From: Zoogloeaceae bacterium
GTDB taxonomy: Bacteria; Pseudomonadota; Gammaproteobacteria; Burkholderiales; Rhodocyclaceae
Assembly (NCBI GenBank): GCA_031276915.1
Contig: JAISME010000191.1
Span: 1-47,348, forward strand
Reading direction: 5' to 3'
DNA length: 47,348 nt
The stretch's first letter is position 1. Every line of letters starts with the position of its first letter. The notes beneath the pieces were generated by a model. The model saw nothing but the letters and a program-made list of their open reading frames with translations. It had not been told where the DNA came from and searched no databases. A program made the position numbers and the translations under genes. Below are positions 7,029 to 31,913 of this stretch, one piece after another.

Positions 7029-9458
7029 ATGGTTTTTGCACAACGAAGAATTTTTGCGCAACAAGAAAAAGTGGAACAGGCGCTTTCGTTTCGCGCGTCG
7101 CAGGCGGAAGCGCGCCCCGGTCGATTCGCGCGCGCGCCCCTGTCTGTCCTGGTGGCGGTGGCTTTGGGCGTGGGCGGTACGGCGTTCCTGGAGTCTGCCG
7201 TTGCGCAAACCGCGAAACCGGCCAGTGAGACCGGCGGAGGGGAATTGGTCGAACTGGAGGCTGTCAAGGTGACGGCGCAAAAGCGCGAGGAATCGGCGCA
7301 GGAAGTGCCTTCCGCCATCACCGTGCTCTCCGGCGACGATTTGATCGACCAGGGCATTGGGCGTTCCGCGAGCGAAATCCTGAACTACGTGCCGAACGCC
7401 TCGGCGGCGACACAGCAACACGGGCGTCCGCGCTGGTGGATTCGTGGCGTTGGCGCGGGACAACAACAGCATGACCTCGCCAATCCGGTCGGCTTCTACC
7501 TGGACGAGGTCTACATCAGCAACGCGAGCGCGACGGGCTTTCCCCTCTTTGACCTTGACCGCGTTGAGGTGTTGCGCGGGCCGCAGGGCACCCTGTGGGG
7601 TAAGAACACCACCGGCGGCGCGATCAGCGTCCTTTCCCGGAGACCCGAATTCGGCCTGGATGGCCCCACTGGCTACGCCAAGATCGACTATGGCAGCTAC
7701 AACACCCTGCTCCTGGAAGGCGCGGTGGGTGCGGAAATCAGCCAGGACAGGCTGGCCGCCCGCGTTTCCTTCCACAGCGAAAACCAGAACAAAGGCCGTT
7801 TCCGAAACGAATTCACCGGGCAAAAGGAGGACGAGTTGCGGGATGACGCTTTCCGTGTGCAACTCTTGGCGAAAATCAATCCGGATTTCGAGGCGCTTTT
7901 GAATATCCATCGCAGGGAATACAAGACAGGGGGCAGCACATGGACGATTGCATCCTACAACGCGGATGGCTCCCTGCACCGGCCAGGCGGCGCGTACGCC
8001 TATACCCCGAGCACCGGTCGCGACACGGTAAACGCGAATGATCCGGCGGAAAGTGACACCGTGCAAAACGGCGCCGCGCTCAACCTGAAATGGCAGTTGG
8101 GCAGGCTCGCCCTGACCTCGATTACCGGCTACGAAAACTTTTCCCAGGAAAGCCAGGGGGGCGACTATACGCCGCTCGAACTCTCGCGCAGTTACGGAGA
8201 TGACAAGAGCCACCAGTGGTCGCAGGAATTCCGTCTCTCTTCCCCCAGGGAAGACAAGGTTTCCTGGGTGACGGGGCTGCACTATTTCAAGGAGAATATC
8301 GACTCTTACAGCGCCACCGCCAACAATTTGACGGGCGTTCCCGCCTCCGCGCCACCTGTCGGCGCGCTGCAATTTTCCGACACGGAGTATGACCATTCCG
8401 CCAAGAGCCTGGCGCTTTTCGGCAGCGCGCGGGTCAATTGGACAGACAATTTCGACACCGTGTTTGGCCTGCGCTGGACGAAAGAAACCAAGGAAGTGGA
8501 CATTCGCCGACGCAACACGCAAGGGGCGGGCAGCGTGACCTTTGGCAACCTCGCCAACTGGTGGGATACTGCTGTGCCGACGTTTCCCGCGAGCGATGGC
8601 AATTTCGATGTCTCCCAGAAACAAACCTGGAAGAAATGGACCTGGGACATCACGCCGGAATACCGCTTTTCCAACAGCCTGCGCGGTTTCTTCAAGTACG
8701 CGCACGGCATCAAATCCGGGGGGTTCAACACCAGCGCGACGGATATCGAGGCGGTCAACGTGGTCGATCCGGAAACACTGGACTCCTACGAACTGGGCCT
8801 GAAATCGGAATGGTTCAATCGCCGCCTGATTTTCAACGCCACCCTGTTCCATTATCAATATGACGATGTGCAGGTCAATGTGGTCGGGCCGAAAGCTTTT
8901 TCAGCGGGTTCCAGCGTTTCCTATTTGCAGAATGTCGAGAAGGCGCACGTCAACGGACTGGAGTTGGAAGTCGAAGCCCTGCCGACCTCTCGTCTGCACC
9001 TGCGCGGTAGCCTGGGGCTACTGAAGACGAGGTTCGACAAGTTCGACATCCAGAACAACGGCGGTTCCCGCGACGGCAACGAATTTGTGCGCTCGCCGCA
9101 TCTGACCGCGCAACTGGCGGTGGATTACCGGATCCCCTTTGAAAACGGCGGCAGCCTCCTCCTGGGCGGGGATTATCGTCACACTTCGAAGCAGTATTAC
9201 TACGTCGCCCAGCAAAAACCCTCTCAATACAGCAACAGGACCGTCGACTATCTTGGTGCTGATCCCTACGGCATCCTGAATCTGCGCGCCGCCTATTCGA
9301 CGCCGGGCGGGGACCAGACCCTGACTTTCTACATCAACAACGCAACCGACGAGGAATACATCCAGCATGCCTTGCCCGGCGGAACGTTCACGGACGGGAA
9401 CAGCTTCACCCAAGGCCCGCGCCGTACTTTCGGCGTTTCCTACACCGCCCGCTTTTGA
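7029..9458 (+). CDS. TonB-dependent receptor (TBDR-2)
   Basis: 809 aa; VEVLRGPQGTLWGKNTTGGAISVLSRRP; C-terminal RTFGVSYTARF; paralogous to TBDR-1. Confidence 0.93.
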   Translation: MVFAQRRIFAQQEKVEQALSFRASQAEARPGRFARAPLSVLVAVALGVGGTAFLESAVAQTAKPASETGGGELVELEAVKVTAQKREESAQEVPSAITVLSGDDLIDQGIGRSASEILNYVPNASAATQQHGRPRWWIRGVGAGQQQHDLANPVGFYLDEVYISNASATGFPLFDLDRVEVLRGPQGTLWGKNTTGGAISVLSRRPEFGLDGPTGYAKIDYGSYNTLLLEGAVGAEISQDRLAARVSFHSENQNKGRFRNEFTGQKEDELRDDAFRVQLLAKINPDFEALLNIHRREYKTGGSTWTIASYNADGSLHRPGGAYAYTPSTGRDTVNANDPAESDTVQNGAALNLKWQLGRLALTSITGYENFSQESQGGDYTPLELSRSYGDDKSHQWSQEFRLSSPREDKVSWVTGLHYFKENIDSYSATANNLTGVPASAPPVGALQFSDTEYDHSAKSLALFGSARVNWTDNFDTVFGLRWTKETKEVDIRRRNTQGAGSVTFGNLANWWDTAVPTFPASDGNFDVSQKQTWKKWTWDITPEYRFSNSLRGFFKYAHGIKSGGFNTSATDIEAVNVVDPETLDSYELGLKSEWFNRRLIFNATLFHYQYDDVQVNVVGPKAFSAGSSVSYLQNVEKAHVNGLELEVEALPTSRLHLRGSLGLLKTRFDKFDIQNNGGSRDGNEFVRSPHLTAQLAVDYRIPFENGGSLLLGGDYRHTSKQYYYVAQQKPSQYSNRTVDYLGADPYGILNLRAAYSTPGGDQTLTFYINNATDEEYIQHALPGGTFTDGNSFTQGPRRTFGVSYTARF

Positions 9459-9570: not shown

Positions 9571-11859
9571 ATGAAAACATGCAATGACAAACGCAGTTCC
9601 CGGCAGTGGGCGAAACGTCCTGTCGCCCTCCTGGTTTCCCTTGCCCTTGGCGGCGGGTTGTTCTCCGGGACGGTGGCGGCGCAATCTTCGCGGCAGGAAG
9701 ACGAAAACGTCACGCTGGACGCGGTCGTCATTCGCGGCGATGGGCAGCGAAAAGTCGTGGGTGACGCGGTCCAGGAAACCGCGCCGGATTCGCAGGTCAC
9801 CTTGGGCAAGGAAACGCTGGAAAAATTCGTCGGCCTCGACAGCCCGGTCACGGGTGCCTTGAGTTACACGCCGGGCGTGTTTTTCGCGGGCAGCGACAGT
9901 TCCGGCGTGACGGAAGGCTCATTCAGCATACGCGGGTTCTCGCAGGACCAGGTGGGCGTGACCCGCGATGGCGTGCCGGTCAATGATCCGCAATACGGTT
10001 CGCCGCACGCGGATTTCTTCGGGGAGCCGGAAAACTACGATTCCATAAGCGTGCTCTATGGTTCGGCTTCCAACGCCAGCCCCGCCCTGACGGCGAGCGG
10101 CGGCTCCATCGCGCTCACGACCGTCGCGCCCACAGCAAGGGCAGGGGCGTTTCTCAAGCAATCCTTTGGCGGCAACCATCTCAGGAAAACCTTTGTCCGC
10201 GCCAATACCGGCGAACACAACGGTTTTTCCGCCTGGGTTTCCGCCTCCCGGACAACCGCGGAGTTATGGACGAAAGGCGGGGGCGACATCGAATCCAACC
10301 GCTACGAAAGCAATCTGCAATATCGCTGGGGCAACGGCAACCGCGTCAACGCCGTTCTTTCCAGTTTCATCATGAAGACGAACTCGTATCACACGCCGAC
10401 ATTGGCCGAATACCGTTCGCAATCTTATTCGGCGGGCTATCCGGAACAGGGTTATCCCACTGTCGGCCCGGATCCGGACGCGCCCGTCACGCCGAGCCTG
10501 GAAGGGCAGCGGGCGGATTTCAAAATCCAGACCGTCGGCGTCAATGGCCTTTTCAATCTTTCCGATGCCGTGCAATTGAGGGTGAATCCCTACTACGTGC
10601 ATGTCACCGAAGGCACGGCCTCGATCATGGCCTTTGGGTTGAACGAAACGCAAATCAACCGGGACCTCAACCAGGATGGCGACAGGGCGGATACGCGCCC
10701 GGTCATCGGCGCCCTGTTCCCCACCCAATACCGGGTCGGCGGCACGGTGACGACGGACTGGTTCCTCAACGCGCAACATACCCTGCAATTCGGACTCTGG
10801 CATGACCTGATCCATGCCCGTCACCAGATCCAGTTCCAGCCCGCGGACGGCAAGGGCAAACCGTATGAAATAGACGGCTCGAACCCCATCCGCGACGGCA
10901 ATGGCGAGGTTGTCCATCTCGCCAACAAGGGCAACCGGGTCACCTCCAGGAAAATATGGGTACAGGACACATGGAACGGCATTGACGATGTGACCATCAC
11001 CGCTGGTCTGGCCGCGTTGCATACGCGGCTGGAAAGCGAAAGGAAGGCGGAATTGTTTACGCCGGGGCTTGCCTACAAGCGTAGCGCGACCTACAACCGC
11101 CTGTTGCCCAGTGTCAAGCTCGCCTGGCAGCGCAACGCGACGGAACAGGTTTTCTACAGCGTGACCTCCAATGTGAAGTTGCCGCTGGTGGAATCCCTCT
11201 ATTCCGCGCCCGGTTCCGGCGAGCAAAAACCGGAAAAAGCCATCAACCAGGAATTGGGCTGGCGTTACGGCACGGATAATCTGCTCCTGGGCGCAACGCT
11301 GTTCTTCAATTCCTTTAAGGATCGCCAGGCGTCTACCGATGTGGGTGGAGTGACTTCCTATATCAACGCGGGCGATGTCAAGACAAGGGGACTGGAACTT
11401 TCGCTGAACGGCAAATTCGCCACATCCTTTCGCTATTTCGGCAACCTGAGCTACACGAGCGCCAAACAAGGCAGCGATTACCGCGTCGACAACGGTCCGG
11501 TGTACGACACCCGGGGCAAGCAATTGTTCAATACGCCGAAATACCTGGCTTCCGTCGGCATTGGTTATGACGATGGCGCGCTCTATGGCAATTTCCTCGC
11601 GCGGTATGTCGGCAGCTTCTACGGCGATCTCGCCAACCGGGAAAAAATCGGTGATTACACGGTTTTCGATCTGAACTTCGGCTACCGGAAAAAACTGTCC
11701 GGACATGAAGTGGTGTTTCGCCTGAATTTGAACAACGTCTTCGACAAGCATTATCTCTCCGGCGTGAAGGGGGGCGTCGTCCTGGCGGACGCGAGTTCTC
11801 CCACCTACTACCGGGGACAGCCCCGCAGTGTGCTCGGTACGCTTTCGGTCGATTTTTGA
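9571..11859 (+). CDS. TonB-dependent receptor (TBDR-3)
   Basis: 762 aa; plug-domain pattern ALSYTPGVFFAGSDSSGVTEGSFSIRGFSQDQVGVTRDGVPVND; barrel ending LGTLSVDF. Confidence 0.92.
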   Translation: MKTCNDKRSSRQWAKRPVALLVSLALGGGLFSGTVAAQSSRQEDENVTLDAVVIRGDGQRKVVGDAVQETAPDSQVTLGKETLEKFVGLDSPVTGALSYTPGVFFAGSDSSGVTEGSFSIRGFSQDQVGVTRDGVPVNDPQYGSPHADFFGEPENYDSISVLYGSASNASPALTASGGSIALTTVAPTARAGAFLKQSFGGNHLRKTFVRANTGEHNGFSAWVSASRTTAELWTKGGGDIESNRYESNLQYRWGNGNRVNAVLSSFIMKTNSYHTPTLAEYRSQSYSAGYPEQGYPTVGPDPDAPVTPSLEGQRADFKIQTVGVNGLFNLSDAVQLRVNPYYVHVTEGTASIMAFGLNETQINRDLNQDGDRADTRPVIGALFPTQYRVGGTVTTDWFLNAQHTLQFGLWHDLIHARHQIQFQPADGKGKPYEIDGSNPIRDGNGEVVHLANKGNRVTSRKIWVQDTWNGIDDVTITAGLAALHTRLESERKAELFTPGLAYKRSATYNRLLPSVKLAWQRNATEQVFYSVTSNVKLPLVESLYSAPGSGEQKPEKAINQELGWRYGTDNLLLGATLFFNSFKDRQASTDVGGVTSYINAGDVKTRGLELSLNGKFATSFRYFGNLSYTSAKQGSDYRVDNGPVYDTRGKQLFNTPKYLASVGIGYDDGALYGNFLARYVGSFYGDLANREKIGDYTVFDLNFGYRKKLSGHEVVFRLNLNNVFDKHYLSGVKGGVVLADASSPTYYRGQPRSVLGTLSVDF

Positions 11860-17757: not shown

Positions 17758-17821
17758 CATTCCGGTACATGGGATTCCGGTTCCATTCTTGATCACTGTC
17801 TTCATCGAAAAGGAGCCTTTC

Positions 17822-18898
17822 ATGGCAACAGAATTCATCTGGCAATTGCCGGTTGCAAGTGACGGTCGTTATGGCGATGCGCGCGCGATTCGGCGGGGTG
17901 AGCGCGACGGATCCGAGCGTTCGGTGTTTTCGCCGGGCGTGAGCGACCCGCGCGGCGACAACTTCAATTATTTCGATTACCTGTACCAGGTGGCGCGCGC
18001 CACCGACCTGGCCGGTTTCGACGGCCTGCAAATCCCCGATGATCCCGACGCGGACGAATCCTGGATCGTGGCGGCCTACGCGGCGCGGGCGACGCGCCAT
18101 GTCAGGATACTGGCCGAGTTTCCGGCTTCGCGCGGTTCTTCCGTGTTTGCCGCGAAGAACGCCATTTCCTTCCAGCGTTTCAGCAAGGGACGTTTTGCCT
18201 GGCAAATTGGCTTGGGCGGCAATGAATTGCAACGCCGCTGGTATGGCGATCATCTTGAGGAAGCCGATCTGCTGCCGCGCATCGAAGAGTTTGTCACGGT
18301 TGCGCGCGGCGTGACGAGTGGCAAGAAATTCAGTTTCGCAGGACGTTTCTTCGAGGTGCTGGAAGGCGGCTTTGGAGGGCCGCTTTCCGCCTATCCACTG
18401 CCGCCGGTTTATCTCTCCGGCAACAGTGACGCTGCATTGTCGCTGTCGGCGCGGGTGGCGGATGTGCATATTTTCGACGCCCTGCCGGTGGCGCAGTTGC
18501 GTCCGGCCGTCGCACATCTCAAGGCCCTGGCGGATCAGGAAGGACGCAAGGTGGCGGCTGGCCTGCGCATTGACCTGGTGGCGCGGGAAACCGAGCGCGA
18601 GGCGTTGTTCGAGGCGCGTCGCTATCTCAATCAATCCGGCCAGCAACGCACGGTTGCCGACCCGGCGGTTGGGTCCAATTACTGGCATGGCCTTTCCTAC
18701 GGTCGCAACGGCGCGGCGGCTTCCCTGTTCGGCGACTATGAACAGGTGGCCAAACGCCTGGCCGAGTATGGGGAAGCAGGCGTCGAGTCTTTCATCCTGA
18801 GCGCGGTTCCGCATCTTGAGGAAGCCTATCGCATCGGCGAGCTTGTCTTGCCTGTGGCGCGTGGCCTTGCTTCCGCCGAGCGACGCCTTGCCGCCTGA
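17822..18898 (+). CDS. LLM-class flavin-dependent monooxygenase, divergent SsuD-like
   Basis: FDGLQIPDDPDADESWIVAAYAARAT, RGSSVFAAKNAISFQRFSKGRFAWQIGLGG, PPVYLSGNSDAA, ESFILSAVPHLEEAYRIGELVLP. Confidence 0.88.
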   Translation: MATEFIWQLPVASDGRYGDARAIRRGERDGSERSVFSPGVSDPRGDNFNYFDYLYQVARATDLAGFDGLQIPDDPDADESWIVAAYAARATRHVRILAEFPASRGSSVFAAKNAISFQRFSKGRFAWQIGLGGNELQRRWYGDHLEEADLLPRIEEFVTVARGVTSGKKFSFAGRFFEVLEGGFGGPLSAYPLPPVYLSGNSDAALSLSARVADVHIFDALPVAQLRPAVAHLKALADQEGRKVAAGLRIDLVARETEREALFEARRYLNQSGQQRTVADPAVGSNYWHGLSYGRNGAAASLFGDYEQVAKRLAEYGEAGVESFILSAVPHLEEAYRIGELVLPVARGLASAERRLAA

Positions 18899-18930: not shown

Positions 18931-20091
18931 ATGAGCATCGATATTTTCTGGAGAATTCCAACACATGGCGAGCCTCGCCACCATCGCGCCCGCACGCCGT
19001 ATCGCGGCGACTGGTTTCCGGGTGACGAAACCCGCCGGGAACCGGGCATTGCCGGCGATGGCAACGATGGTTACACCTATATCGACTACCTGGCCGAGAT
19101 TGCCCACGCGGCGGAGATTTCCGGCTTCCAGGGCGGGCTGATCCCGACTTTCCCGAGCACGGAAGAGCCGTGGGTGATTTCCCCCTTCCTTGCCCGCGAG
19201 ACCAAAACCTTCCGTTTCATGATTCCCTTCCAGCCCGGTTTCCAGAATCCCGTGCTGGTTGCGCGCGCCACGGCGAGCCTGCAACGCGCCACAGGCGGGC
19301 GGGCGCTGTACAACATCATCAGCGGCGGCGGCGGCCCGGAACAATTGTGGTGGGGCGATTCCATCGCGCACGATGACCGCTATACGCGCACGACGGAGTT
19401 CCTGGATGTCCTGCGCGGCGTCTGGGATGGCGGCCCCTTTTCCTACCGGGGCAAGTTCTACCAGATTGAGGACAGTGGTTTGCCCTCTTCCTTGTCGCGT
19501 GAAGCGTTCCCGGAAATCTATTTTTCCGGTTCTTCCGACGCCGCGCTGGCTTCGGCTTCCAAGCACGCGGATTACTACCTCTCCTGGCTGGAGCCTTTTG
19601 AGCAGTTGGGCAACAAGTTCAAGCGGGTGCAGGAAAAAACAGCGGCGCTTGGGCGCCAGATCAAGACCGCTGTACGCGTCGACATCGTCGCGCGTCCCAC
19701 GGAAGAAGAAGCCTGGCGGGAAATACAACGCGGTTTCGAGAACGTCGACAAGAAGGTATGGGAGCAGTACTACGCTTCCGTGCAAAGCGAGTCGGTCGGC
19801 GCGGCGCGGCAGCGTTCCTTCCGGCCCACGACCATCAACAGCTACAAGGACCTGATTATCGAACCCAATGTCTGGTCTGGCTTCAGTCTCCTGCGGGGCG
19901 GGCAAACCCAGGGAATTGTCGGTAGTTATGAACAGGTCGCCGAACGTCTCGACCAACTGGTGGCGTTGGGCGCCGGCGCTTTCATCCTGGCAAGTACGCC
20001 GCATCTGGAAGAAGCCTATCGCGTTGGGGAAGAAGTGCTGCCGCTGGTGCGCGGGCGCTCCGACGAAACCGTATTGCGCAAGGTCGCCTGA
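18931..20091 (+). CDS. LLM-class flavin-dependent monooxygenase, SsuD-like (alkanesulfonate monooxygenase family)
   Basis: MSIDIFWRIPTHGE, QPGFQNPVLVARATASLQRATGGRALYNIISGGG, IYFSGSSDAAL, LIIEPNVWSGFSLLRGGQTQGIVGSYEQVAERL, ASTPHLEEAYRVGEEVLPLV. Confidence 0.92.
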   Translation: MSIDIFWRIPTHGEPRHHRARTPYRGDWFPGDETRREPGIAGDGNDGYTYIDYLAEIAHAAEISGFQGGLIPTFPSTEEPWVISPFLARETKTFRFMIPFQPGFQNPVLVARATASLQRATGGRALYNIISGGGGPEQLWWGDSIAHDDRYTRTTEFLDVLRGVWDGGPFSYRGKFYQIEDSGLPSSLSREAFPEIYFSGSSDAALASASKHADYYLSWLEPFEQLGNKFKRVQEKTAALGRQIKTAVRVDIVARPTEEEAWREIQRGFENVDKKVWEQYYASVQSESVGAARQRSFRPTTINSYKDLIIEPNVWSGFSLLRGGQTQGIVGSYEQVAERLDQLVALGAGAFILASTPHLEEAYRVGEEVLPLVRGRSDETVLRKVA

Positions 20092-20199: not shown

Positions 20200-21270
20200 A
20201 TGTCCGTAACGCACGCGCACACAGGATTCGCCGAAAACCGGACGATCTGGTTTACCCGTTGTCCGGTTCCCACGGCGACCGGGTTGGCCTACCGCCTGGG
20301 CTGGCTGGAAGAGGAATTTCGTCGTGATGGCCTCGCGGTGGCAACCTTGCAGGATGCCGCGCCCGCCCTGTTGCGCCATCATTACGACCATGAAATCGAC
20401 AGCCTGATTCGTGAGGGCGGGGCCTTGCTGGCGCTCGCCGCGCGCGCGCAGGGCGCGCCGACCAGATTGATCGGACTGACCTGGATCGATGAATGGCAGG
20501 TCATCCTGACGCGGCGGGGGTCGGGAATCGACGCGCCCTTGAAACTCAAGGGCAAGCGGCTGGCCCTGCCCGCGTTCGTGGAACGGGAAATTGCCGCGCA
20601 CGCGCGCGGCAGCAGCATCGCGCGTGGCATGAGCCTGCAAGGTTACAAGGGCGCGCTGGATGCCGTTGGCCTGACGCTGGATGATGTGCGTTTTGTCGAG
20701 GTGGGTTCGGGGCAGTCGGAAGAAAGAGGCGGCGGCAATCTCTGGCAGGGGTTGCAAGCCCTGCGGGAGAATGCGGTCGACGCGGTATACGCCAAGGGCG
20801 CGAGCGCTGTGGAAGCGGCGCGAAAGTTTGACGCCGAAGTCGGCATTGACCTGGACGCCCTGCCGGAACGGCGTTACCGGGTGAATAACGGCACGCCGCG
20901 CCCCATCACCGTGCACGCAGATTTTCTCGAACGGCATTTTGACCTGGTGACGCGCTTTCTCGCGCAAACCCTGCGGGCGTCGGATTGGGCGGCGGAAAAT
21001 CCCGACGCGGTGCGCGAGATTCTCAAGGGGGAAACCGGGGCTGGCGATGCGGCGGTCGCCACCGCATATCGCCATGATTTCCATCGTTTCCTGCACCCCG
21101 ACCTTACGGCGGAGCGGCGCGATCTGCTGGAGATCCAGAAGCGATTCATGCTCGTGCATGGTTTTCTCGATCGGGATTTCGCCCTCGAAGACTGGATTGA
21201 CGCGCGTCCGCTGGAGGCGGCGCGCGCGCTCCTGGAGCAAAACCCGGAGTCTTTCCGGGCGGCGGCCTGA
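20200..21270 (+). CDS. DszB-like sulfinate desulfinase candidate (SsuA/NMT1 binding-protein fold, no signal peptide)
   Basis: FTRCPVPTATGLA...HYDHEIDSLIREGG retains Cys, His, Arg and RxGG in the spacing recalled for DszB (C27, H60, R70, G73); no signal sequence; RBS GGAGGGAGAG. Confidence 0.78.
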   Translation: MSVTHAHTGFAENRTIWFTRCPVPTATGLAYRLGWLEEEFRRDGLAVATLQDAAPALLRHHYDHEIDSLIREGGALLALAARAQGAPTRLIGLTWIDEWQVILTRRGSGIDAPLKLKGKRLALPAFVEREIAAHARGSSIARGMSLQGYKGALDAVGLTLDDVRFVEVGSGQSEERGGGNLWQGLQALRENAVDAVYAKGASAVEAARKFDAEVGIDLDALPERRYRVNNGTPRPITVHADFLERHFDLVTRFLAQTLRASDWAAENPDAVREILKGETGAGDAAVATAYRHDFHRFLHPDLTAERRDLLEIQKRFMLVHGFLDRDFALEDWIDARPLEAARALLEQNPESFRAAA

Positions 21271-21351: not shown

Positions 21352-22074
21352 ATGGGAACTGAAAATTTTGCGTTATCCGCGGCGGCGCGGGAATTTGTCG
21401 CCAGCGTCAAGGCGGATGGAGAAAAAGCCTTTCGCATCCTGCGTGAAACCGGGACAACCACCGCTTTTGGCACAGTGGGTTTCGTGGTGCGCATCCCGAA
21501 CGACGACAAACTGGCCGTCATCAATGATCCCGGTCCCTGGAACCGGGGCGAACCGGTCGAGCCCGCGATCTACAGCCTGGAAGGAAAGCTGCTGCACGGC
21601 AAGGGAGGCGGGGGCGACAATCGCTACGCCAAGCTCTTCCGCGTACGTCCCGAAATCACCATCATTTCGCATGTGCACACGCCGTATGTCGCCGTTTGGG
21701 GGCAGACGCACCGCACCTTGCCGGTCACGTATGTCGCTTTTCAGCGACATCACCTGCTGCGCGAAATTCCGATCTATATCGACCGTCGCCAGGAAGAGGT
21801 GGATTTCATCATTGACCGGATCACGGAAAACCCGCACAACACCGCCATTCTCGAGGCCAATGGCGGCGGCACGGTCTGGGGCAGGAAAGGCATTCGTGAA
21901 CAAACCGAGAACATCATCCTGTTCGAGGAAGCCGCGCAACTGGCCACGCTTTCCGAATTGGTCGGCGGCCCACGCAATTATGGCGCCGGCGTGTTGTGGC
22001 GCAACTGGAACATGACCGGTCTCTTCGAGGAAGGCAAGGCGCTTGGCCTGGTTCCCGTAACCGACCTGCTCTGA
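21352..22074 (+). CDS. Class II aldolase/adducin family protein
   Basis: ISHVHTPYVAVWGQ metal-binding motif; ENIILFEEAAQLATLSELVGGP; 240 aa from ATG 21352. Confidence 0.88.
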   Translation: MGTENFALSAAAREFVASVKADGEKAFRILRETGTTTAFGTVGFVVRIPNDDKLAVINDPGPWNRGEPVEPAIYSLEGKLLHGKGGGGDNRYAKLFRVRPEITIISHVHTPYVAVWGQTHRTLPVTYVAFQRHHLLREIPIYIDRRQEEVDFIIDRITENPHNTAILEANGGGTVWGRKGIREQTENIILFEEAAQLATLSELVGGPRNYGAGVLWRNWNMTGLFEEGKALGLVPVTDLL

Positions 22075-22153: not shown

Positions 22154-22744
22154 ATGTCACAAACACGCCAGATAGAACGGGGCGTCAACCCTCTTTTTGT
22201 AGAGCGCTGGTCTGCCCGCGCCTTCGATGAATCCACGTTGACAGAAGCCGAATTGCAAACAGTGTTTGAAGCGGCGCGCTGGGCGCCCTCCGCCTATAAC
22301 GCCCAGCCCTGGCGGTTCCTGTATGCACGGCGGGGTACACCCGATTGGCGGAAATTTCTCGATTTCCTCATTCCCTATAACCGCGACTGGGCGCAGCACG
22401 CTTCGGCGCTGATTATCGCGCTTTCGGCGCGGCGGCTTGTTCCGCCCGGCAAGACGGAAGCCATTGACTCCATCTACCATTCGCACGACACGGGCGCGGC
22501 AGTCGGTTTTCTCGTGTTGCAGGCGCACCTTTCCGGGTTGAATACCCGCATCATCGGAGGCTTCGATCAGGAAAAGGTAAAAAGCGAACTGGGCGTCCCG
22601 GATGATTACGCCGTCGAAAGCCTGATCGTGATCGGCAGGAAAGGAAAACCCGAAACGCTCTCCGAGAGTTTTCGGGCGCGGGAAGCGCCGAGTGAACGCT
22701 TGCCCCTGCAAAATCTGGTTGCCGAAGGCCGATTCGGTTTCTGA
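22154..22744 (+). CDS. Nitroreductase-family FMN-dependent oxidoreductase
   Basis: RWSARAFDESTLTEAELQTVFEAARWAPSAYNAQPWRFLYARRG nitroreductase signature. Confidence 0.9.
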   Translation: MSQTRQIERGVNPLFVERWSARAFDESTLTEAELQTVFEAARWAPSAYNAQPWRFLYARRGTPDWRKFLDFLIPYNRDWAQHASALIIALSARRLVPPGKTEAIDSIYHSHDTGAAVGFLVLQAHLSGLNTRIIGGFDQEKVKSELGVPDDYAVESLIVIGRKGKPETLSESFRAREAPSERLPLQNLVAEGRFGF

Positions 22745-22940: not shown

Positions 22941-23104
22941 GGTATCTGTTGAAATAACAGCATATCGTCCGTGGCGCGCCCGCGTTCTTTCTTCATATGC
23001 GATATTTCCATATATAAGTAATATTTTACTATTACAGATCACTGTTTTTACGCTTTAGAATCAAACCAGAAATCGATGAAATCTCTCTTTTCATGGAGCA
23101 TGAC

Positions 23105-24325
23105 ATGAATGGTATTGCGCTGTACCCGCCGGTCTCGCCGCTCCCTGATTATGGAGAACAGGCCGGTGGCGTCACTGATGACGAGTTTCCAGTCGATGAA
23201 CCGCTTTCGTTCCGCGACAAGGGCGGCCTGCTCGCTTTCCGGGAACCTCATTCCTACGCCCTGAGTATCAGGGCGCGCGCCCTGGTGTTTGAAGATCCCA
23301 AATCCCGGCAAATCAGGGAACACATCGAGCGCCTTGCGCCGCACGATGTCAATGTCTTGGTCTGCGGAGCAACCGGGACCGGGAAGGAACTGATTGCGCG
23401 TTATCTCCATTCGCAAAGCCAGCGGGCGCGCAAGTCTTTCCTGGCGATCAATTGCGGCGCGATCGCGGAAAACCTGATTGAAGCGGAATTGTTCGGTTAT
23501 GAGCGCGGCGCGTTTACCGGCGCGGTGGCCTCCAAGGCTGGATGGTTCGAGGCGGCGGATAACGGTTCCCTGTTCCTTGATGAAATTGGCGATCTGCCGC
23601 TCAACCAGCAAGTCAAGCTGTTGCGGGTGCTCCAGGAGCGCGAAGTGGTGCGATTGGGAGGGCGCAAGCCCATCCCCATCAATGTCCGCCTGATTGCCGC
23701 GACGAATGTCGATCTGGAAGAGGCCGTTTCCGCCGGACGTTTTCGTGAGGACCTGTATTATCGACTCAAGGTCGCCACGGTTGTCCTGCCGCCCCTGCGC
23801 GAGCGTCCGGCGGATATTCCCATCCTGCTCAGTCATTTTGTCCAGTATTACTCGCAGCGTCTGGCGCGCTCCGGTGTTTTCATCGCGCCCGCGACCATCG
23901 CCTCCCTGATGGCCTTCCCTTGGCCGGGCAATATCCGGGAACTGGAAAACGCCGTGCATCACGCGCTGATTGTTGGCCGTGACAAGGAGTTGAAATACGA
24001 GGATTTTGGCTTGATGGACAGGCTGGTTTCGCATAATGGCAGCGACAGCGATGTGGGCAATCTCAAGGATGCCCTGCGGAGAATCTACGCGAGCAAGCCG
24101 CAAGGCGGCGCTTCGGTGGATGAACTGATCGCGAAAACCATTATCGAGGAGGCATTCGAATATTGCGGTCGCAACCAGTCCGCTACGGCGCGCCTGCTGG
24201 GAATTACCCGAAATGTCGCGCGGGGACGTCTGCTTGCACATGGTTTGATTAGCGATGAACTTGACCCCCCTCGCGTTTTCGGGATGGGTTTTAACGGCCG
24301 GCCCCAGGACTCTACAAACGCATGA
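23105..24325 (+). CDS. Sigma-54-dependent transcriptional activator, SfnR-like (short N-terminus, AAA+, Fis-type HTH)
   Basis: GATGTGKELIARYLH Walker A, ELFGYERGAFTGA, LFLDEIGDLPLNQQVKLLRVLQEREVVRLGG, WPGNIRELENAVHHAL, C-terminal HTH NQSATARLLGITRNVARGRLLAHGLI. Confidence 0.93.
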   Translation: MNGIALYPPVSPLPDYGEQAGGVTDDEFPVDEPLSFRDKGGLLAFREPHSYALSIRARALVFEDPKSRQIREHIERLAPHDVNVLVCGATGTGKELIARYLHSQSQRARKSFLAINCGAIAENLIEAELFGYERGAFTGAVASKAGWFEAADNGSLFLDEIGDLPLNQQVKLLRVLQEREVVRLGGRKPIPINVRLIAATNVDLEEAVSAGRFREDLYYRLKVATVVLPPLRERPADIPILLSHFVQYYSQRLARSGVFIAPATIASLMAFPWPGNIRELENAVHHALIVGRDKELKYEDFGLMDRLVSHNGSDSDVGNLKDALRRIYASKPQGGASVDELIAKTIIEEAFEYCGRNQSATARLLGITRNVARGRLLAHGLISDELDPPRVFGMGFNGRPQDSTNA

Positions 24326-24435: not shown

Positions 24436-24487
24436 GGTCGACGTTGCCTGAAATAAAAAAAGTCATGGAAGTCAATCAGATAATATT

Positions 24488-24503
24488 TGGCACGGTTTTT
24501 GCG
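24488..24503 (+). promoter_or_regulatory. Sigma-54 promoter TGGCACGGTTTTTGCG
   Basis: Near-perfect match to TGGCACG-N4-TTGC; GG 24489-24490, GC 24501-24502; 48 bp upstream of the start codon. Confidence 0.85.
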
Positions 24504-24515
24504 AAACCGGTCTCC

Positions 24516-24539
24516 CACTATGAACAACACTATGAACAA
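24516..24539 (+). repeat. Perfect 12-bp tandem duplication (CACTATGAACAA)x2 at the predicted transcription start/5'UTR
   Basis: Read directly from the sequence. Confidence 0.9.
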
Positions 24540-24550
24540 AGGAGACAAAC

Positions 24551-25654
24551 ATGAAAAAACACCTGGACGTTCTCTGGTATACCCGTTGTCCGGTTCCTAC
24601 CGGTCTGGGCATTGCCGTACAAAAAGGCTGGCTGGATGAAAGTTTTCGCCAGCGACGCACGGAGATCCGTTCGCTGCGTGAATCCAGGGAGCAAGCGGTT
24701 CGGGAATCCCATTTCGACCATACCCTGAAAAACTCGGTGCGCCACGGCGGCAACATTCCGGCGCTCTGGGCGCGTGCTTCCGGACGCGACACCCGCCTCC
24801 TGGGGCTTTCCTGGGTCGATGAAACGCAGCGCATCCTGACCACGCCGGATTCCGGCATTCGCACGGTGAAGGATTTGCGGGGACGCCGTTTTGGACTGCC
24901 GAAACGTACCCGGGTGCAAATCGACTTTACCCGCGCGCAGGCCCTGCGCGGACTGGAAAATGCCCTGCGTCTCGAGGGTCTCGACATCCCGGATGTGGAA
25001 ATCGTCGATTTCCAGATTGACGCGGGTTTCAGCGGCACGGCAACAAGCAAGGCCGCGGGAGGACACTACGTGTTCGGCAGTTCGCATTCCGGCGGACAGA
25101 ACGCCGAACTGGTCGGTTTGTTGCGTGGCGAGGTCGACGCCATTTTCCTGAAAGGCGCGATCGCCGCCGAGTTCGCGCATCATTTCGACCTGCATACCGT
25201 GATTGACACCGGTACGCATCCTGATCCCCGTATCCGTTCCAACAACGGAACGCCGCGCACATTGACCGTGGATCGCCATTTGCTCGACCATCATTTCGAC
25301 TCGGCGACGCTGCTGGTCGAGCAGGTTCTGCGCGCGGAAGCATGGGCGCGCACGCACGCGGAAGAGACGCGACGTTTCCTGGCGCTGGAAACCAACAGCA
25401 GTGAGCACTGGGTCAGCATTGCCTACGGCGAGAGCGTCCATCAGCAGATTGCCACCGACCTGACCGAAACCGCGATTCACGCCTTGCAGGATTTCAGCGA
25501 TTTCCTGCATCGCTGGCAGTTCATTCCCGCGCCGGTTGATGTGGACGCGTGGATCGATGCGCGCCCGCTCGAAGCGGCAAACCGGACGCGCGACACGTTG
25601 GCAGCCGGAATCGTGCTCAAGGAAAGGGAAGAAGCGCTCTGCGCCCTGAATTGA
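24551..25654 (+). CDS. DszB-like sulfinate desulfinase candidate, second paralog
   Basis: WYTRCPVPTGLGIA...SHFDHTLKNSVRHGGNIPAL preserves C, H-x9-R-x-GG; no signal peptide; RBS AAAGGAGACAAAC. Confidence 0.78.
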   Translation: MKKHLDVLWYTRCPVPTGLGIAVQKGWLDESFRQRRTEIRSLRESREQAVRESHFDHTLKNSVRHGGNIPALWARASGRDTRLLGLSWVDETQRILTTPDSGIRTVKDLRGRRFGLPKRTRVQIDFTRAQALRGLENALRLEGLDIPDVEIVDFQIDAGFSGTATSKAAGGHYVFGSSHSGGQNAELVGLLRGEVDAIFLKGAIAAEFAHHFDLHTVIDTGTHPDPRIRSNNGTPRTLTVDRHLLDHHFDSATLLVEQVLRAEAWARTHAEETRRFLALETNSSEHWVSIAYGESVHQQIATDLTETAIHALQDFSDFLHRWQFIPAPVDVDAWIDARPLEAANRTRDTLAAGIVLKEREEALCALN

Positions 25655-26009: not shown

Positions 26010-26669
26010 ATGAGCAATGCCTTTAGTTACGCGCAGCAACAACGCGATCCACGCCGCCACCTGGGTGGCATTGCGTTTGTTGTGCTTTTCCATCTCCTGT
26101 TGGCGTGGGCGCTGGCGAATGGTCTCGCGCGCGATGTAATCAAGGTGTTCCAGCCGCCGCTTGACGTGCGCCTGATCGAGGAAGTCAAGCCGGTTGTCGA
26201 GGAACCCCCGCCGCCCCCGCCCCCGCCACTGGAAAGGCGAAGAATCGTTGCCCAGCCACAACCCCTGCCGCCGTCTTCCTATGTTCCGCCGCCGGAAGTC
26301 CAGGTCGACGCGCCTGAAGCGCCGGTGATTGTCGCCATCCAGACGGAACCTCCCCCGCCTGTCGTTGCGCCGGAACCGCCGCCGCCGCCAGAGCCGGTTG
26401 CCGCCGCCGTCAGCGTGACCTGCCCGAATCATCTCGATGTGCGCAGCAGCGTGCCTTATCCGCCGCAAGCCCTGCGCGGCAACAAAAGCGGCGAGGTGTC
26501 CGTCGAGTTTGTCGTCGATACCAACGGTTCCATTGGCAATATCCGCGTCATTCGTTCCAGCGACCCGGTTTTCAACAAGGCCGCCACTGGCGCGGTCAAG
26601 CGTTTCCGTTGCGTCGGACAGGCGCGTCCGGTGCTGGTCAAGGTGCCTTTCCAGTTTGAACTGAACTGA
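26010..26669 (+). CDS. tonB: TonB energy transducer
   Basis: N-terminal TM anchor, PPPPPPPPLERR proline-rich spacer, C-terminal YPPQALRGNKSGEVSVEFVVDTNGSIGNIRVIRSSDPVFNKAA. Confidence 0.92.
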   Translation: MSNAFSYAQQQRDPRRHLGGIAFVVLFHLLLAWALANGLARDVIKVFQPPLDVRLIEEVKPVVEEPPPPPPPPLERRRIVAQPQPLPPSSYVPPPEVQVDAPEAPVIVAIQTEPPPPVVAPEPPPPPEPVAAAVSVTCPNHLDVRSSVPYPPQALRGNKSGEVSVEFVVDTNGSIGNIRVIRSSDPVFNKAATGAVKRFRCVGQARPVLVKVPFQFELN

Positions 26670-29515: not shown

Positions 29516-30727
29516 TCAATGCGCCGCCCATTGCACCGTGCTCAGGTCGACGCCATCCCGCACCATTTCCCAGAGCGGCGACATTTCCCGCAGCCTTTCG
29601 ATTTTCCGGTGCAGGAGCGCGACCGCATAGTCGATTTCCTCTTCCGTGGTAAACCGTCCCAAGGTAAAGCGAATGGAACTGTGCGCGAGTTCGTCCTCGC
29701 GCCCCAGGGCGCGCAGCACGTAGGAAGGCTCCAGGCTCGCCGAAGTGCAGGCGGAACCGGAGGATACGGCCAGATCCTTGATCGCCATCATCAGCGATTC
29801 CCCTTCCACGTAGGCGAAACTCACGTTCAGATTGTGCGCGATCCGCCGCGTGAGGTCGCCGTTTACATAGACAGCCTCAATGCCGGAAAGCCCGGCGAGG
29901 AGCCGGTCGCGCAGCCTGCCGACACGCGCGTTTTCCTCCGCCATTTCTTCCTTTGCCAGCCGATAGGCCTCGCCCATGCCGACGATCTGGTGTGTGGGCA
30001 GCGTGCCGGAGCGAAAACCCCGCTCATGGCCGCCGCCGTGCATCTGCGCTTCCAGCCGCGCGCGGGGTTTGCGGCGCACGTAAAGCGCGCCGATGCCTTT
30101 GGGCCCGTAGATCTTGTGGGCGGAAAAGCTCATCAGATCCACCTTCAGGCACGCCAGATTGATTTCCACCTTGCCAGCCGCCTGCGCCGCGTCGACGTGG
30201 AAGATGATTCCCTTCTCCCGGCAGATTTCGCCGATTTCGGCAATCGGCTGGATAACGCCGATTTCGTTGTTGACCAACATCATGGAGACAAGGCTTGTGT
30301 CGGGCCTGAGCGCGGCCTTGAACGCTTCCAGATCGATGAGGCCGTTTTCCATGACGTCAAGGTAAGTCGCCTCGAATCCCTGGCGCTCCATTTCCCGCAT
30401 GGTGTCGAGCACCGCCTTGTGCTCGGTCTTCACGGTGACCAGGTGTTTTCCCCTGGAGGCGCCGTAGAAATGCGCAGCGCCCTTGATGGCAAGGTTGTCG
30501 GATTCCGTCGCGCCGGAAGTCCAGATGATCTCCCGGGGGTCGGCATTCACCAGCGCGGCGACCTGCCCGCGCGCTTCCTCCACGGCGGTTTCCGCCTCCC
30601 AGCCAAAACTGTGTGAACGCGAGGCGGGATTGCCGAATTTTTCGGCAAGCCAGGGCAGCATCTTGTCCACGACCCGTGGGTCGACCGGGGTCGTCGCGGA
30701 ATAATCAAGATAAATGGGCAATTTCAT
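29516..30727 (-). CDS. iscS: Cysteine desulfurase IscS
   Basis: [61 protein letters not shown]. Confidence 0.97.
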
Positions 30728-31913
30728 GGGACAGGCTCCGTGAGCGCTGGATGTGCAGCGCTGTCAATTCCTTGAGTTCGGAAAGGGTTCTTTCCAGGGC
30801 AAGCAAAAAATCGTCGATATGCCGGGCGGTGTTTTCAATTCCCAGGCTTACGCGCACAGCGCCGCGCGCGAGGCGGTCCGGCACGCCCATTGCGACAAGC
30901 ACATGCGATGGCCCGGGGCTGGCGCTCGAACAGGCCGCGCCGCTGGCTATGGCGAATCCGGCCCGGTCAAGCCTGCCGACCAGCGTCTCGCCGTCCAGAT
31001 CGGCAAAGGCGAAACAGACGGTGTTGGGAAGACGCGCTGCCGCCGCGCCGAAAATCGCCGCGCCCATGGCGCGCAGCCCCGTTTCGAGACGCGCGCGCAG
31101 TTCCGTCAGGCGCCACGCCTCTGTCTCGCGTTCCGCCGCTGCCCATTCCACCGCGGCGCCGAAGCCGACAATGGCCGCCACGTTTTCGGTGCCGGAACGC
31201 AGACCCCGCTCTTGCCCGCCGCCAGCGATCAGGGGAAAGAGGTCCAGGCGCTTGTCTGCGATCAGCGCCGCCGCGCCCTTGGGACCGTGGACCTTGTGCG
31301 CCGCCACGGAAAGCGCGTGGACCCCCGCCTGGTTGAGCGCGCGAAAATCCATCGGGATTTTACCGAACGCCTGTACCGCATCGGTATGGAAATACGCGCC
31401 AGGGACGGCTTCGCGCACCTGGCTTGCGATGTTCGCCACGTCTTGCAGGACGCCGGTTTCGTTGTTCGCCAGCATCACCGACCAGAGCGACGGGCGTTCT
31501 CCCAGCGCCGTTGTCACGCCATCCGGCGTCACGCGGCCCGCGTCGTCTACGGGCAACTCCAGGATGCGCCAGCCCTGCCGGACAAGCTGCCGGGCCGGCG
31601 CACGCACGCTGGCATGCTCGACAGCGCTCACGGCGACAATGCCAGGCTTGCCGCTGGCCGCCGCGACACCTTTCAGGAAGAGATTGTTGGCTTCGGAACC
31701 GCCACTTGCAAACACAACTTCCGTTGGGTGCGCGCCTGCCGCTACCGCCACCTGCTCGCGCGCGCGCTCGATGGCTTTCAGGGCGGCGCGCCCGTATTCA
31801 TGCCGGCTGGAGGGATTGCCGCAACGCGCGCCGAGATACGGCAACATGGCCTCCAGCACGCGCGCGTGCACCGGCGTGGTCGCGTTGTGGTCCAGATAGA
31901 CGGGTGTGAACAC
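30705..31913 (-). CDS. Second cysteine desulfurase (NifS/IscS family)
   Basis: [51 protein letters not shown]; overlaps iscS by 23 nt. Confidence 0.93.

Follow-up and report, generated by a model that had tools for sequence, protein, structure and literature searches.

What does the gene at 24551-25654 of this DNA encode: a DszB-type enzyme that would release sulfite from sulfinates, a sensor of such compounds, or the binding protein of an ABC importer? The window, by which we mean the whole stretch of DNA that was analyzed, comprises 47,348 nt of a Zoogloeaceae bacterium (assembly GCA_031276915.1, contig JAISME010000191.1, positions 1 to 47,348, forward strand). A sequence-only reading of the gene had proposed a second, diverged DszB-like desulfinase with its own sigma-54 promoter, either acting on other sulfinates than its neighboring paralog or serving in sensing. 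Our results indicate that the product is probably a cytoplasmic DszB-type sulfinate desulfinase, a reading for which residues, fold, phylogeny, promoter site, activator clade and synteny were computed and from which we infer catalysis, substrate class and inducing condition.

Organization of the locus

Table 1. Features of the window around the 24551 gene, and Ser-bearing relatives in Pseudomonas
Feature	Coordinates	Strand	Remarks
Predicted DszB-like sulfinate desulfinase (window clade, 'DszB2')	24551..25654	+	367 aa, ATG start
Codon of C13	24587-24589	+	in 24551 ORF
Codon of H54	24710-24712	+	in 24551 ORF
Codon of R64	24740-24742	+	in 24551 ORF
Codons of G66-G67	24746-24751	+	in 24551 ORF
Shine-Dalgarno AGGAG	24540..24544	+	read from sequence
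Sigma-54 -24/-12 promoter site	24487-24502	+	TTGGCACGGTTTTTGC at 24487-24502; TGGCACGGTTTTTGC at 24488-24502
Sigma-54 activator	23093..24325	+	AAA+ and weak Fis-type HTH; without known sensory domain
Paralogous DszB-like protein ('DszB1')	20200..21270	+	separate clade; alignment, tree
SsuD-like FMN monooxygenase	17789..18898	+	start uncertain
SsuD-like FMN monooxygenase	18931..20091	+	
Class II aldolase-family protein	21355..22074	+	repeatedly beside DszB-like genes
Nitroreductase-family protein	22154..22744	+	possible flavin reductase, from inferred role
Ser-bearing tandem paralogs (Pseudomonas)	L038:9084-10142; L041; L042:9077-10144; L043; L047:7980-9047; L100:2611-3666		

The ORF (GC3 of 0.70) stands alone, as the sequence-only reading had stated: a gap of 355 bp precedes the following ORF, which is a TonB gene located downstream of the sulfur genes (26010-26669), and the activator gene adjoins 24551. 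Three TonB-dependent receptors are encoded upstream of the sulfur genes (13-2223, 7029-9458 and 9571-11859), and TonB receptors flank DszB-like genes at other loci as well. A short tandem duplication, two copies of ACTATGAACA at 24519-24539, lies directly 5′ of the Shine-Dalgarno sequence and adds extra ATG codons. On the minus strand, two neighboring ORFs (29516-31913) resemble different cysteine desulfurases when their translations are compared by eye only. An Rfam scan gave no match at the 24551 locus.

Catalytic residues and fold

Both motifs on which the sequence-only reading relied, YTRCPVPTGLGIA and SHFDHTLKNSVRHGGNIPAL, are present, and alignment places C13, H54, R64, G66 and G67 of the 24551 protein on C27, H60, R70, G72 and G73 of DszB. 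The roles of C27, H60 and R70 in DszB have been described, and the C27S variant is inactive (PMC6100217). The Cys/His/Arg/Gly-Gly set is kept in nearly all DszB-like relatives of the alignment; its Cys, His and Arg are absent from E. coli SsuA and TauA and from the ssuA genes found inside the same clusters. The best PDB relative by sequence is DszB (E 9e-12, 27-28% identity over 332 aa), a Pfam scan of the protein gave no match, and the SsuA family model scored it at 73 bits against a cutoff of 163.5. An AlphaFold2 model, for which 27 aligned relatives from the window and loci served as input and rows from plasmid records were left out, reached a mean pLDDT of 92 with a single weak loop (residues 168-181), possibly the counterpart of DszB loop 187-204, whose conformation is rebuilt when substrate binds (PMC6100217). 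Foldseek searches with this model ranked three DszB chains first to third (E 9e-20 to 2e-19), followed by SsuA; the protein is thus nearer to DszB than to SsuA within a fold that is also common to Thi5. No signal peptide was detected by a simple Kyte-Doolittle measure: the motif starts at residue 8, N-terminal hydrophobicity is low, and the N-termini of the binding proteins tested are more hydrophobic than those of the DszB-like proteins of the window and its relatives.

Paralogs and distribution

In a tree of 68 rows, DszB and all DszB-like proteins fall on one side and SsuA/TauA on the other (support of 99, the long outgroup branches being flagged). The 24551 protein groups with DszB rather than among the secreted SsuA/TauA proteins, and its orthologs retain the motif. 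Its clade contains proteins of Azoarcus (76% identity), Agitococcus, Duganella, Burkholderia, Sphingobium and Pseudomonas, these orthologs being 60-76% identical to it, together with a second copy from its own genome (C13, 67%). The sequence-only reading had counted two paralogs, which is too few, since the genome holds four DszB-like genes (C151:24551, C151:20242, C13:175 and C59:13350). The C59 copy forms a deeper branch (51% identity to 24551), and the 20200 gene, rightly described as clearly diverged (37% identity over 343 aa), belongs to a second clade; both this clade and that of 24551 have orthologs of their own, and the two genes are therefore old paralogs. The two copies may plausibly act on different substrates, in view of their separate clades and of pocket residues altered relative to DszB.

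Matches at E 1e-3 were found in 17 of 200 genomes of the order, a count that takes in distant binding proteins, and matches at 1e-20 in 6 of 299 genomes of the phylum. Within the genus of genome G256, which we take as Pseudomonas-like by its matching gene arrangement, 15 of 25 genomes match; the viral contigs searched contain no relative. Plasmid relatives carry the annotation 'ABC transporter substrate-binding protein'. The proteobacterial branch that includes the 24551 protein is related to DszB, widespread and, for the most part, mis-annotated.

Sigma-54 promoter and activator

The exact -24/-12 site upstream of 24551, which the sequence-only reading had called near-perfect, is the sole exact TGGCAC-N5-TTGC in the window (0.14 expected). 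Because 14 of 100 shuffles also held at least one such site, a lone exact match is only modest evidence; this one becomes convincing through its placement 63 bp upstream of the ATG and because similar sites recur in front of homologous operons. Of 28 operon heads, 6 have an exact site within 220 bp (background of 0.003 per head), and 15 are preceded by a site with at most one mismatch (background of 0.023 per head). With heads set by hand after the neighborhoods had been seen, some starts estimated and related species not independent, this recurrence is strong evidence but not a formal test. No site was found within 220 bp of the rhizobial, Paracoccus and Variovorax operon heads. Exact promoter elements, rpoN in the genome and a nearby activator are all present for 24551. 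Across the genome, ~38 copies of TGGCACATGTCTTGC are present. This sequence matches the sigma-54 consensus exactly, and its copies often sit at the ends of contigs or form inverted pairs. Two that were sampled (L060:1373-1893 and L063:1367-1865) are near-palindromes with arms of 243-248 nt that are 85-89% complementary, and neither matched Rfam.

Nine activators from DszB-like clusters group in a single clade that excludes three further activators of the genome (100/100), and the clade of the window activator travels with DszB-like clusters. In seven of the nine, a distance of 56-91 residues separates the Walker A motif from the start (91 in the window activator; not measurable in L072, and probably shortened by the start call in L037), which is too little for a usual sensory domain. 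The 24551 gene would depend on sigma-54 and on the adjacent SfnR-like activator for its transcription, with induction presumably under sulfur limitation.

Gene neighborhoods and proposed reaction

DszB-like genes are found beside SsuD-like or NtaA/DszA-like flavin monooxygenases, a class II aldolase-family protein and SfnB/DszC-like oxidoreductases, at loci that also hold ssuABC, ABC exporters and TonB receptors. An example of this organization is a Sphingobium plasmid, in which DszB1, an activator, DszB1, the aldolase-family gene, an NtaA-like gene and DszB2 follow one another, with ssuABC on one flank and an arylsulfatase farther along. The NtaA-like protein of C13 shares 35% identity with mycobacterial DszA, and Pseudomonas SfnB 32% with mycobacterial DszC. 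Rhizobial, Paracoccus and Variovorax relatives adjoin acyl-CoA-dehydrogenase-family or peptide-transporter genes. Another DszB-like locus of the genome to which the window belongs (L077:3148-12642), all on one strand, encodes a binding protein, a TonB receptor, a DszB-like protein, a nitroreductase, an FAD monooxygenase, an acyl-CoA-dehydrogenase-like protein and an ABC permease and ATPase.

Under the desulfinase reading, an organic sulfinate would be made by flavin monooxygenases encoded in the clusters, which are SsuD-like here and DszA- and DszC/SfnB-like at the paralog loci and in relatives. From this sulfinate the 24551 protein would release sulfite, leaving the sulfur usable by the bacterium. 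Within its periplasmic-binding-protein fold, Cys13 would act as proton donor and His54 and Arg64 would serve the sulfinate group.

Cysteine-less relatives and alternative explanations

In Pseudomonas, a tandem copy lies after the ortholog of the window clade; it reads THSPVPT, with Ser in place of the Cys, and retains the His, Arg and Gly-Gly residues (Table 1). The 13 Ser rows form one clade (SH-aLRT 100) and require one change on the tree, and their dN/dS values (0.09-0.38, versus 0.21-0.47 for Cys copies) indicate that they are maintained under purifying selection; a non-cleaving role or other chemistry is therefore plausible. The Cys is also lost in L025, L039 and L072 of the alignment. 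Because close Pseudomonas paralogs persist without it, the fold can serve without DszB-type catalysis, and in some relatives sulfinates may be bound and left intact. A more speculative reading, of rather low probability, is a sigma-54-controlled desulfinase branch that is widespread in proteobacteria and comprises several substrate clades; certain proteins of this branch, the Ser paralogs, would have turned into sulfinate-binding partners or sensors that do not cleave and that work next to an active copy.

Could the 24551 protein itself be a cytoplasmic sensor or carrier, binding a sulfinate or sulfonate uncleaved and informing the adjacent activator that lacks a sensory domain? The activator and DszB2 are neighbors here and in Agitococcus L037, the N-termini of the activators are short, and selection maintains the Cys-to-Ser relatives; yet the window clade keeps its Cys, and most relatives sit among monooxygenase genes with no activator directly adjacent, which makes this explanation unlikely. 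The desulfinase half of the sequence-only reading is best supported (residues, fold, tree, lack of a leader, neighborhood), whereas the sensing role finds no direct support in the case of this Cys-bearing copy. We give similarly low credence to an enzyme that uses this fold on a different sulfur group, for example in sulfonates, or for a different reaction, such as a self-sacrificing one of the Thi5 type: the fold common to Thi5 and SsuA and a pocket that differs from DszB would allow it, but the complete DszB residue set is retained. An SsuA/TauA-type substrate-binding protein of an ABC importer, to which the fold superfamily, the weak SsuA score and the annotation of the plasmid relatives point, is highly improbable and was rejected on the tree, the motif, the absent leader peptide and the score below the family cutoff, no permease or ATPase adjoining the gene in the window and the protein standing apart from the true ssuA genes present alongside DszB-like genes in the clusters.

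Implications and comparison with known systems

One report describes DszB turnover as slow and limiting in biodesulfurization (PMC12168087). A broad proteobacterial branch that combines the catalytic residues of DszB with different pockets and a clear handle on regulation would provide candidate enzymes, and recognizing it would correct records that list its members as ABC transporter substrate-binding proteins. Whether sulfinate binding without cleavage has a cellular role becomes testable with the natural Cys-to-Ser paralogs. A search of the open-access literature, weak in that subscription papers lay mostly outside it, returned no account of a proteobacterial DszB-like family under sigma-54 control.

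SsuA and TauA share the fold superfamily and an organosulfur neighborhood with the 24551 protein but are secreted, lack the Cys/His/Arg set and lie on the opposite side of the tree. Judging from titles cited in PMC13352529, the sulfone system SfnR/sfnFG of Pseudomonas putida DS1 may offer a regulatory parallel in which a sigma-54 activator drives organosulfur genes; here, by contrast, the DszB-like gene would be the direct target. The closest likeness is to DszB, the 2′-hydroxybiphenyl-2-sulfinate desulfinase of the 4S pathway of Rhodococcus IGTS8 (PDB 2de2, 2de3), in fold, in Cys27, His60, Arg70 and Gly72-73, in the lack of a leader, and in the DszA- and DszC-like monooxygenases linked to relatives and paralog loci, whose gene sets echo the 4S logic of sulfide to sulfone to sulfinate to sulfite. 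The 24551 system differs by a sequence identity of only 27-28%, by its sigma-54 promoter with its own activator, by several clades per genome, by the absence of two DszB inserts and by a pocket in which Y63 and Q65 of DszB are replaced by H57, nearly invariant across the DszB-like family, and L59. As judged from the aligned residues, this pocket change concerns the substrate and not the chemistry, and the substrate is probably a sulfinate other than 2′-hydroxybiphenyl-2-sulfinate.
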